A stretch of DNA of 64,000 bases, from assembly GCA_024195265.1 (NCBI GenBank), contig JAJLRJ010000002.1, positions 51,501,043-51,565,042 of the forward strand, given 5' to 3'. This document shows, piece by piece, positions 38,494-49,256 of the stretch (positions are counted from its first letter, which is position 1; every line of letters begins with the position of its first letter). The notes beneath the pieces are model-generated. The model saw only the letters and a program-made list of their open reading frames with translations, was not told where the DNA came from and did not search any database. Both the position numbers and the translations under genes were made by a program. This DNA is from Dendrophyllia cribrosa. Lineage: Eukaryota > Cnidaria > Anthozoa > Scleractinia > Dendrophylliidae.

Positions 38494-38563
38494 TCAGCGG
38501 ATTCCTTTTGCAGCCAACTCTTCTTTAACTCGCCGCAGGTAGTCTGGGTCGGGATATCCAAAC
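38494..38563 (-). CDS. Locus B exon 6: C-terminus of DTC
   Basis: 70 nt, [20 protein letters not shown] then IR and TGA. Confidence 0.88.
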
Positions 38564-47500: not shown

Positions 47501-49256
47501 TCAGACAGCCGTCTTTGCGGTAAACTGTGTCAACTGAATCGTTGGCAGGATTTGAAGAGCGGAATTGTTAGGAGCTTTTGGCTGATAAAATACGCTGCTC
47601 CATTCAATATATATCTATGTTTAGTTTAACTTTATAGTGTTTGTAATTAGAACGTTCCTTTCATTTTTGAGCTCGTGATTTTGTAAACAAAACAATTCGA
47701 ACTGAATTCAGGAGTTGCACAACAAATCCAATAAGTTCATAAACACATTTAATCATATAATCATAACAATTACCTTGCTCCATTGATTCATCACTGTTTT
47801 CACACATAATTCTGCTCCTTGCGCTTTTCAACGGAGTTGTTTTTTCTTGTTTAGGACATTGACTTCTTGTACTCGCTTTCAGTTTGAATGGACTTCCCAC
47901 GATCTCGTTTCCTTCAACTTCGATAGAAACCGTGAATTCTCCAGGGGTTGTTGGTCTGTAGGAAATTGAATAACTGCCATTCTTCAAGTCCGTCACAACG
48001 GTCTTTATATTATCATTTGACAATGATGTGATTTTGACGCTGACTTGATCTATCTCACTGTAAGTTGTTTGGCCTACCGAATTCTTAGTAATTACTGTAA
48101 AAGAGCAATCCTCGCCTACCAGACACTCTGTGAGGTTCTTGCCTTCTGCCACTGACAGTGAAGGCTCAGTATCGGTTGTAATCAACTTTCCCGGTGCGTC
48201 TTTTAGGAAGGAAACATCACTTTGAACGTACTTGACCCCGGAGTAACCAAGCTTCGGCGTAGCTTGAAAAGGCACAGAAAGTTCTTGAAGCCTCTGTTCA
48301 ATTGTTCCTTTGACGTTTAAAATTTCCGGTAAATTCTTTCGAAGAAGAACTTCTTCACTAAATGCCAAAGTGTTCTCTATTTCCATCAGTTTGCCGTCTA
48401 AGCTAGCCATCTGGGTGTCGAAGGCATCTTGGAACCCTGCTTTCTGTTGGACTAACCGTTCAGTCACGCTTACTTCGTGTTGACGAATTAATAAAATGCA
48501 GCGTTCAGCGACGCGCTTGACTTCTTTGGTCGCTTCTTCGATACTACCGTTTACTTGAAGTCTTCTTTTCTCCAGAGAACCTTTGTAGCTCCTCAAACGA
48601 GAGCAGTTTTCCTGAACCTCGCGCACTTTGATTTCAATTTCAGACTTGTTGTTTTCAAGTCCTTGGTCAAGCGAGATTTTCTTGTGGTCTTGATGCTCCA
48701 ATATGGCGCAGTTTAGACAAATGCAAATTTGGCACCTTTCGCAGTAAAACCTCATTTCATCCTTGTGTTTCTTGCAAAAGTTTGCCCTTCGAGCATAATC
48801 TTGGACATCGCTTGACTCAAAGTTCCCGATTTCTTTAACATGATGACCCTTAAAAATTTTTCCTTTCATATGGGCACTAATGCAATCATCACACAAGAAG
48901 CTATTGCAATCAGAACAATAAAATTTCAAAGACTTCTTTTCGTCGCAGATTCCACAGCGAGGTGAATCTTCTTGTCCTTGCCCACTATAAGCCTCCACGA
49001 TTTCCACAAGCTGCTTGCAGAACAAATTGGATGGCAGGCTTTGAATATTGTTAGGACACTCGGTGATCTGACGACATGTCGGACAACTCAACTCTCCTTC
49101 ACGTTGCTGCCGTAACCAAGTTTCCATACAGGTCTTACAGAACGTGTGCAGACATTTCAGTATTTTGGGTTCGTTGATCTCACTAAACTGCTCCTGACAC
49201 ACAGAACACTCCAAATGATTCTTAACATTATCGAAAAAGCTTTTACACCGAGCCAT
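38494..49256 (-). CDS. Locus B: TRIM45-like / KH-like / macrodomain / Deltex fusion E3 ligase
   Basis: Predicted 1253-residue protein from six exons: 49256-47774, 46825-46010, 44187-43270, 42117-41911, 40744-40477, 38563-38494. Order: RING (C17, C20, C35, H37, C40, C43, C58, C61), B-box 1 (about 101-143), B-box 2 (about 160-200), coiled coil, filamin repeat (about 355-465), acidic linker, KH-like region, macrodomain, Gly/Pro-rich linker, Deltex RING (complete C3HC4) and DTC. Junctions 1-4 are phase 1, junction 5 is phase 2, and all have GT-AG ends. Vertebrate DTX3L (KH-like plus RING-DTC) works with the macrodomain protein PARP9; here comparable parts would be one chain together with a TRIM ligase. 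Likely role, by inference: ubiquitination steered by ADP-ribose, perhaps in innate defence. A split into two transcripts (TRIM alone, KH-macro-Deltex alone) cannot be excluded. Confidence 0.8.
39007..39681. mobile_element. 675-bp non-autonomous DNA transposon in B last intron
   Basis: Ends CTCAAGTAACTTAAGGCTTG and CAAGCCTTAACACACTTGAG are inverted. The intron of A at about 58530 reads TTTTAATATATCGAAAATGG straight through, an empty site consistent with a 2-bp duplication. No open frame inside. Confidence 0.75.
39841..40165 (-). mobile_element. LINE 3'-end insertion in B last intron
   Basis: (GAATA)n then GAAACTTTATTAAAGTGTCA...TTTGGGGACACC. Locus A at about 58675 reads CATTCATTCGATCCGACC without it. 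Confidence 0.7.
40477..40744 (-). CDS. Locus B exon 5: DTC domain
   Basis: 268 nt, acceptor TTTTTAG, donor [51 protein letters not shown] and WNDIYHKTS. Confidence 0.9.
41911..42117 (-). CDS. Locus B exon 4: Deltex-type RING
   Basis: 207 nt, acceptor TTTATAG, donor GTAAAA. CPICLDPI, CKHVFCSGC and CPVCQ give all eight ligands. GNQPRGEM and VPGYEG lead into DTC. Confidence 0.9.
42580..43110. repeat. TTCGAAATAGC-type repeat array in B intron 3
   Basis: Several copies of GTTCGAAATAGCGGG / AATAACCGGGG words at 42575-42612 and 42945-43090, in tandem and partly inverted, typical of Tigger/pogo-like element ends. Confidence 0.5.
43270..44187 (-). CDS. Locus B exon 3: macrodomain
   Basis: 918 nt, acceptor TTTCAG, donor GTAAGC, phase 1-1. 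About 180 residues form a macrodomain: VYKGDITNEQVDVIVNAADE, the DGGMAKAIL loop, VVHAVGPRW and LPAIGSGIYGMP. The NAAD and DGG-A patterns resemble the PARP9/14 type. The GGGGVD-like loop of MacroD hydrolases is absent, which favours ADP-ribose binding over removal. The last ~120 residues are Gly/Ser/Pro-rich; the final third corresponds to the small linker exon of loci A and C. Confidence 0.88.
45576..45622. repeat. Poly-C tract in B intron 2
   Basis: About 47 nt of C with two T interruptions. Confidence 0.9.
45663..45885 (+). mobile_element. tRNA-derived SINE in B intron 2
   Basis: A-box-like GGTGGTGAGATAGAG, then TGATCCGGGTTCGAAGACCG (B box with one inserted base), then a tail with CTCCCGCAAAAACAAACATTCC and TTCCAGTTCGATCTTG, which I recognise as a conserved SINE tail common in marine invertebrates. 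No cloverleaf, so not a functional tRNA. Confidence 0.6.
46010..46825 (-). CDS. Locus B exon 2: acidic linker and KH-like region
   Basis: 816 nt, acceptor TTACCAG, donor GTTAGT, phase 1-1. The first ~95 residues are charged and probably disordered (HEEEQEE). Then come FEIKPKIVKVFVEAHDKELE, a KYHVEIP strand, a helix (YEEACNKFISLYQKMY) and a second weaker repeat (ISNISKKFPISVERN...WELYGEASNIEEALKYL). This alternation resembles the KH-like modules of DTX3L and PARP10/14. The KH-like call is by pattern and needs a profile search. Confidence 0.65.
47774..49256 (-). CDS. Locus B exon 1: TRIM RING-Bbox-CC-filamin
   Basis: 1483 nt, ATG at 49256 (the open frame begins ten codons earlier without an ATG). 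Donor CAAG|GTAATT. Read-through past the donor stays open for about 37 codons before a stop, so an intron-retained TRIM-only product is possible. Confidence 0.85.

Follow-up and report, generated by a model that had tools for sequence, protein, structure and literature searches.

A predicted single-chain TRIM–KH–macro–RING–DTC ubiquitin ligase gene in a tandem Deltex array of the coral Dendrophyllia cribrosa

The window analysed here is a 64-kb stretch of DNA from Dendrophyllia cribrosa. Five Deltex RING–DTC units were located in it by exon-by-exon tblastn, all on the same strand and in the 5' to 3' order E, D, C, B, and A. The positions of the units and of the features of unit D are collected in Table 1. 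In the earlier note on this DNA, unit D had been read as six exons on the minus strand, bounded by GT-AG and compatible in phase. Joining of these exons gave a single frame of 1253 codons that closes with TGA, and the description was thereby confirmed. The five introns are all of the GT-AG type, with exit phases of 1, 1, 1, 1, and 2. The splicing across unit D is itself a prediction from the sequence.

Table 1. Deltex units, exons, and domain-encoding segments in the 64-kb window
Feature	Window positions	Strand	Remarks
Unit E	58009..63778	minus	Deltex RING, DTC, end exon; 5' part beyond window edge
Unit D	38494-49256	minus	
Unit D exon 1	49256-47774	minus	TRIM45-like RING, B-boxes, filamin
Exon 1 RING	49211-49071	minus	position by arithmetic from Pfam range
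Exon 1 first B-box region	48956-48840	minus	
Exon 1 B-box	48785-48669	minus	
Exon 1 filamin repeat	48170-47883	minus	
Unit D exon 2	46825-46010	minus	acidic linker and KH_DTX3L-like region
Exon 2 KH_DTX3L-like region	46523-46173	minus	
Unit D exon 3	44187-43270	minus	macro domain and Ser/Gly-rich linker
Exon 3 macro domain	44125-43772	minus	
Exon 3 Asp792	44113-44111	minus	at loop-1 asparagine position
Unit D exon 4	42117-41911	minus	Deltex RING and beginning of DTC
Exon 4 Deltex RING	42112-41999	minus	
Unit D exon 5	40744-40477	minus	DTC domain
Exon 5 Tyr1220 (TAC)	40511-40509	minus	position of catalytic His582 in DTX2
Unit D exon 6	38563-38494	minus	DTC end with Glu608-equivalent; stop TGA
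Unit C	26912..32859	minus	paralogue of D; 660-aa open frame
Unit C TRIM-filamin exon	32859-31422	minus	
Unit C RING exon	29726-29520	minus	
Unit C DTC exon	28540-28273	minus	
Unit C end exon	26981-26912	minus	
Unit B	18474..22418	minus	paralogue of D; 662-aa open frame
Unit B TRIM-filamin exon	22418-20975	minus	
Unit B RING exon	20193-19984	minus	
Unit B DTC exon	19473-19209	minus	
Unit B end exon	18543-18474	minus	
Unit A	3526..14858	minus	RING, DTC, end exon

The joined translation of unit D was searched against Pfam, and the domain order RING–B-boxes–filamin–KH–macro–RING–DTC that had been read from the letters was recovered with each domain (RING, B-box, filamin, KH_DTX3L, macro, RING, and DTC) above its curated cut-off. 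The first RING occupies residues 16–62 (PF13639, 55.6 bits) and has a complete set of zinc ligands. The B-box family PF00643 matches two stretches at 43.7 bits, the best at residues 158–196, and the first B-box region (residues 101–139) also matches PF22586 at 26.2 bits, just under the cut-off of 27 bits. The filamin repeat spans residues 363–458 (PF00630, 66.1 bits). A coiled coil is presumably present in the TRIM region of exon 1, as in the TRIM family. The KH_DTX3L region is detected at residues 596–712 (PF21718, 33.7 bits against a cut-off of 27.4) and the macro domain at residues 788–905. The second, Deltex-type RING (residues 1075–1112) keeps all of its zinc ligands and adjoins the DTC (residues 1120–1252, 202.4 bits). 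The best PDB match for the RING–DTC portion is DTX3L (3pg6). Pfam matched 18 families at an E-value of 0.1 or below, and no WWE domain, a trait of DTX1/2/4, is one of them. The macroPARP plan of PARP9 and PARP14 does not apply to the unit D protein, for which Pfam reports one macro stretch and no PARP (ART) domain.

The structure of exon 2 was predicted with a mean pLDDT of 68.3 and a pTM of 0.52. Blocks of ten residues within positions 91–230 of the model reach pLDDT values of 85–97. Values below 50 were obtained for 111 of the 271 residues. In a Foldseek search, the leading entries among the 50 best rows include many tandem-KH proteins (Krr1, Dim2, and FBP KH3-4), together with ferredoxin-like designs and an aspartate kinase. 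The TM-scores are mostly 0.2–0.35 and only 10 matches reach an E-value of 0.001 or better, so the predicted fold adds weakly to the KH assignment, which is carried by Pfam.

Within residues 1–340 the TRIM45-like exons of units C and B are 90% and 71% identical to that of unit D, respectively. In units B and C the TRIM exon joins directly to the RING and DTC exons; tblastn of the window found no KH or macro exon outside unit D with an E-value better than 0.8. The TRIM donor lies at an identical place in units B, C, and D (CAAG or CAAT, then GT, in phase 1), and the three units agree as well in the acceptor of the RING exon and in the junctions that follow. Of the evidence within the window, this recurring joint speaks most strongly for onward splicing of the TRIM exon. 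The dN/dS ratios of the TRIM exon are 0.27 (D–C), 0.23 (D–B), and 0.26 (C–B), values that indicate purifying selection on this exon between the paralogues.

The remaining parts of the array are less regular. By eye, a stretch of unit E near 63.7 kb resembles the linker that trails a macro domain, with a tblastn E-value of only 4.5. No TRIM exon was found for unit A by tblastn. An in-frame stop is located inside the RING exon of unit A (14592-14858, minus), and its apparent last exon, about 10 kb downstream, is assumed to belong to it. Two long frames of 993 and 667 aa (5088-10500, minus) lie between the DTC exon of unit A and its end exon; they have a transposon-type look, and neither has a Pfam match at E 0.001. 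A 249-aa frame at 54622-55368 (minus) resembles, on visual inspection, the terminal part of a LINE reverse transcriptase and likewise gave no Pfam match at E 0.001. In unit C, the first zinc-binding Cys of the second RING is replaced by Arg, and a 56-bp tandem duplication (29687-29796) spans the acceptor and the 5' end of the RING exon. Unit D is flanked by direct repeats (36099-36991 and 49473-50746) that are 13.4–14.3 kb apart and are possibly the remains of a segmental duplication.

A Deltex half of unit D that is expressed by itself would need its own start. P0007, a DTX3L-like coral protein with no TRIM portion, begins with a PARP14-type RRM. Nine pieces from six relatives were used to search the 64 kb for RRM or first-KH start exons at E-values up to 5, and nothing convincing was found (best E 0.37). 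There is also no in-frame ATG in exon 2 ahead of the KH region. The Deltex half of unit D therefore has no visible start without exon 1.

Protein searches returned 27, 1101, and 597 matches, from which the best 27, 120, and 120 were examined, giving 241 distinct proteins. Among these, at least 16 combine a DTC with a B-box and/or a filamin repeat when the Pfam columns are counted by eye: 11 from seven coral genera (Montipora, Porites, Oculina, Stylophora, Pocillopora, Desmophyllum, and Acropora), 1 other, 2 from amphioxus, and 2 from tarpon. The first twelve are P0001, P0002, P0003, P0004, P0009, P0010, P0011, P0033, P0040, P0056, P0104, and P0112; those of amphioxus (Branchiostoma) are P0160 and P0171, and those of tarpon (Megalops) are P0157 and P0162. 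The first of these searches (27 matches) yielded P0001, a Montipora capricornis gene model from NCBI (isoform X2, 1316 aa), in which RING–B-box–filamin–KH-like–macro–RING–DTC follow each other in one chain as in unit D. The remark that no described protein has this order is overtaken by this gene model, on which no paper was found. The KH-like region of P0001 aligns with exon 2 of unit D at 37% identity, and Asp is found in loop 1 of both macro domains. P0001, which is a prediction only, differs from unit D in an extra KH-like stretch after the filamin repeat (by eye) and in keeping the Deltex catalytic His.

The other fusions vary in their completeness. P0104, on a contig of 2230 bases, has filamin, RING, and DTC in a single uninterrupted frame, which is the spliced form, and it stops early in the DTC. 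This entry is nearest to RNA evidence for a fusion, but it may come from genomic DNA that contains a processed copy. P0002 and P0056 have no Pfam filamin match, P0011 has no RING or B-boxes, and these three may be cut or faulty gene models. Read-through or errors of gene prediction in tandem arrays may account for some of the fusions. The amphioxus proteins P0171 and P0160 and the tarpon proteins P0157 and P0162 join a TRIM RING–B-box to RING–DTC as in unit D, and P0171 also has a macro domain; unlike unit D, the four have no filamin repeat. P0171 and P0188 carry one locus number and have different 3' parts, which adds to the suspicion of prediction artefacts. A limited literature search retrieved no description of a TRIM–Deltex fusion. 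The protein of unit D is a variant of the Deltex and TRIM ligases and not categorically new.

TRIM portions were also observed in other company. P0021 has a TRIM45-like RING–B-box–filamin joined to IBR and an E3_UbLigase_RBR C-terminal domain on a contig of 3482 bases. P0006, P0012–P0015, P0019, P0020, and P0049 are TRIM-type proteins with a macro domain and no DTC among the domains listed, and TRIM is thus combined with the macro cassette in the absence of Deltex as well.

The frame, the domains, the paralogues, the missing start, and the fused relatives make a single-chain TRIM–KH–macro–RING–DTC gene the best reading of unit D, and the proposal that one chain joins a TRIM ligase to a Deltex ligase stands on the same evidence. 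We consider it probable that unit D of the tandem array encodes one protein of 1253 residues, in which a TRIM45-like RBCC–filamin ligase is spliced onto a DTX3L-like KH–macro–RING–DTC ligase. Unit D could instead be a facultative conjoined gene composed of a TRIM45-like and a Deltex gene arranged in tandem. Most transcripts of the TRIM gene would then stop in intron 1, and the fused form would be a minor or regulated isoform made by read-through splicing. Poly(A)-signal-like hexamers are found in intron 1 at 47753, 47345, and 46913, so a TRIM-only mRNA is possible; however, 18 such hexamers occur in the 11.3 kb scanned, and the three in intron 1 therefore mean little. Coral models with only TRIM–filamin (for example P0045 and P0067) would fit a conjoined gene, as would the Montipora proteins P0003 (TRIM start) and P0018 (RRM start), whose 179-aa RING–DTC portions are identical. 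This identity, together with the mixed coral tree described below, could reflect the use of different 5' ends, exchange between units of an array, or faulty prediction. Against a conjoined gene are the lack of a start exon for the Deltex half in the 64 kb searched and a donor place that is kept in three diverged units, and we regard this arrangement as rather unlikely.

The catalytic residues of the DTC were compared with those of DTX2, in which His582 and Glu608 were reported to be required for the ubiquitylation of ADP-ribose (PMC7615817). The DTX2 numbering was set by counting along the 6y22 chain from these two residues. In the PDB alignment with 6y22, Tyr1220 of unit D appears at the position of His582 and Glu at the position of Glu608. 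Unit E also has Tyr at this position, encoded by TAT rather than the TAC of unit D, and the change from His to Tyr may be old because the two units share it through different codons. Units A, B, and C keep the His. The His motif was matched 124 times in the 241 listed proteins, with 115 HH, 9 with another first residue, and no Tyr. The His is lost in 5 of 18 assessable fusions (P0009, P0033, P0112, P0160, and unit D), a count that draws on the 16 fused proteins together with units B, C, and D, with P0104 cut short, and whose rows are not independent. Since Tyr replaces His, the ubiquitylation of ADP-ribose by the DTC of unit D is predicted to be weak or lost, and the expectation of a Deltex-type ADP-ribose ligase in unit D is not supported.

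Loop 1 of the unit D macro domain reads NAAD, compared with NASN in PARP14 MD1. In hydrolase macrodomains loop 1 carries Asn/Ser and loop 2 a hydrophobic residue followed by an aromatic one; unit D has Asp792 in the former and keeps Ile-Tyr in the latter. Asp at the loop-1 Asn is found in 6 of the 31 macrodomains caught by a motif scan, unit D included, and the other five are from Montipora and Branchiostoma. The members of a YmdB structure pair differ at the residue that matches Asp792. We take Asn40 of Mac1 to be the equivalent of the Asp792 position. Replacement of Asn40 by Asp was reported to leave ADP-ribose binding intact with less than 1% of the hydrolytic activity (PMC10499221). The macro domain of unit D is therefore predicted, from the change of the loop-1 Asn to Asp, to be a reader of ADP-ribose and not a hydrolase, and it plausibly guides the protein to ADP-ribose. 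The protein is thus more likely a TRIM scaffold for ADP-ribose reading and the formation of ordinary ubiquitin links than one that ubiquitylates ADP-ribose.

The same two substitutions could be taken as signs of a decaying copy, perhaps transcribed, whose product is losing function. The damage to units A and C points in this direction, as do the D–C dN/dS ratios of 0.65 for the RING and 0.46 for the DTC, both of which are based on few changes. However, all 1253 codons of unit D are open, both RINGs have full ligand sets, the TRIM ratios are low, the Tyr is shared with unit E, and the Asp recurs in the five other macrodomains, and decay is thus an improbable account of unit D. Least probable of all are two unrelated neighbours that are never spliced together and whose phases match by coincidence; TRIM and Deltex units are both tandem in the window, but the same donor and acceptors recur in units B, C, and D, no separate Deltex start was found in the 64 kb, fused models occur in at least seven coral genera, and the frame of P0104 is in spliced form.

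The predicted single-chain protein of unit D can be compared with known ligases. Human TRIM45 has a RING, B-boxes, a coiled coil, and filamin, which is the plan of the TRIM part of unit D, and it is not known to have a KH, macro, or Deltex part. The DTX3L-like proteins P0007, P0017, P0018, P0186, and P0188 of corals and amphioxus contain macro–RING–DTC as in unit D but begin with a PARP14-type RRM where unit D begins with TRIM. Their KH_DTX3L region is above the cut-off in P0007, just below it in P0186, and recognized by alignment in P0017 and P0018, and the coral macro–RING–DTC proteins without TRIM have a KH region like exon 2. Corals and amphioxus thus have RRM–macro–RING–DTC without TRIM, and macro–RING–DTC is present in the crinoid Antedon and in Ciona. 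In vertebrates, DTX3L with PARP9 has KH-like regions and RING–DTC as in unit D, and the complex was reported to read ADP-ribose via a macrodomain (PMC10955461); it consists of two chains and has no TRIM part, compared with one chain with TRIM in unit D. PARP9 was reported from jawed vertebrates only and PARP14 also from corals (PMC10221186). The suggestion that the DTX3L–PARP9 pair is fused here is not supported by these distributions. Because macro–Deltex proteins occur in invertebrates and PARP9 in jawed vertebrates only, the built-in macro domain is likely an older invertebrate arrangement and not a fusion of the vertebrate pair, and the newer event was likely the joining of TRIM.

The number of such joinings was assessed using two trees. 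The RING–DTC tree (43 rows) requires 12 changes of the TRIM label with units A and E scored as having no TRIM, and at least 8 of these changes are forced by starred branches; without units A and E there are 10 changes. The TRIM tree (44 rows) requires 10 changes of the DTC label. Values as low were obtained in 71 of 500 shuffles for the TRIM label, the clustering of which is not significant, and in 107 of 500 for the DTC label. The unclustered TRIM label fits recurrent joining and fits annotation noise as well. P0033 and P0112 have long branches on the RING–DTC tree and their placement is unsure. A single origin of the fusion is disfavoured by the 10–12 and 10 label changes, which are read from labels ("TRIM-only" and "no TRIM") that are unsafe for contig-predicted or 5'-cut proteins. 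The DTC halves of the tarpon fusions fall within fish and snake DTX3L (support 97/92), those of the amphioxus fusions lie with an amphioxus non-fusion at weak support (82/4), and the coral fusions are intermixed with coral non-fusions. The amphioxus and tarpon fusions likely arose separately from those of corals. The similar gene models of other corals, amphioxus, and tarpon suggest that TRIM and Deltex are genuinely joined, perhaps through several events. We tentatively propose that TRIM exons have been attached repeatedly to ADP-ribose-reading Deltex cassettes in corals and, independently, in amphioxus and tarpon. The phase-1 TRIM–filamin exon of corals would then be a mobile 5' module for KH, macro, RING–DTC, and RBR-ligase cassettes in tandem arrays, and would give rise to combinatorial, oligomeric, ADP-ribose-reading ligases as one-chain counterparts of DTX3L–PARP9.

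A working scheme for the unit D protein can be drawn from its parts. The TRIM coiled coil would dimerise or oligomerise the chain, and the macro domain would bind ADP-ribose on a target and leave it in place. The filamin and KH parts may add contacts with targets or partners. The two RINGs would place ordinary ubiquitin on lysines of, or near, the marked target, and direct ubiquitylation of ADP-ribose by the DTC would contribute little or nothing. DTX3L–PARP9 was reported to require oligomerisation for good reading of mono-ADP-ribose, through an oligomerising domain that emerged with amniotes (PMC10955461). Since that reading depends on oligomerisation, the TRIM coiled coil could meet a comparable need in the coral protein. 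Kinship with DTX3L, PARP9, and PARP14 prompts the guess that the protein acts in antiviral or stress signalling.

If the single-chain reading is correct, unit D would represent, in animals where PARP9 is not found, a naturally occurring single-chain form of the DTX3L–PARP9 complex that reads ADP-ribose, and it would serve as a test of whether reading, oligomerisation, and ubiquitin transfer belong together. The presence of His and non-His copies in one array would allow the ubiquitylation of ADP-ribose to be separated from ordinary ubiquitylation. The apparently recurrent joining of TRIM and Deltex suggests that both types of ligase share a path, perhaps an antiviral one.
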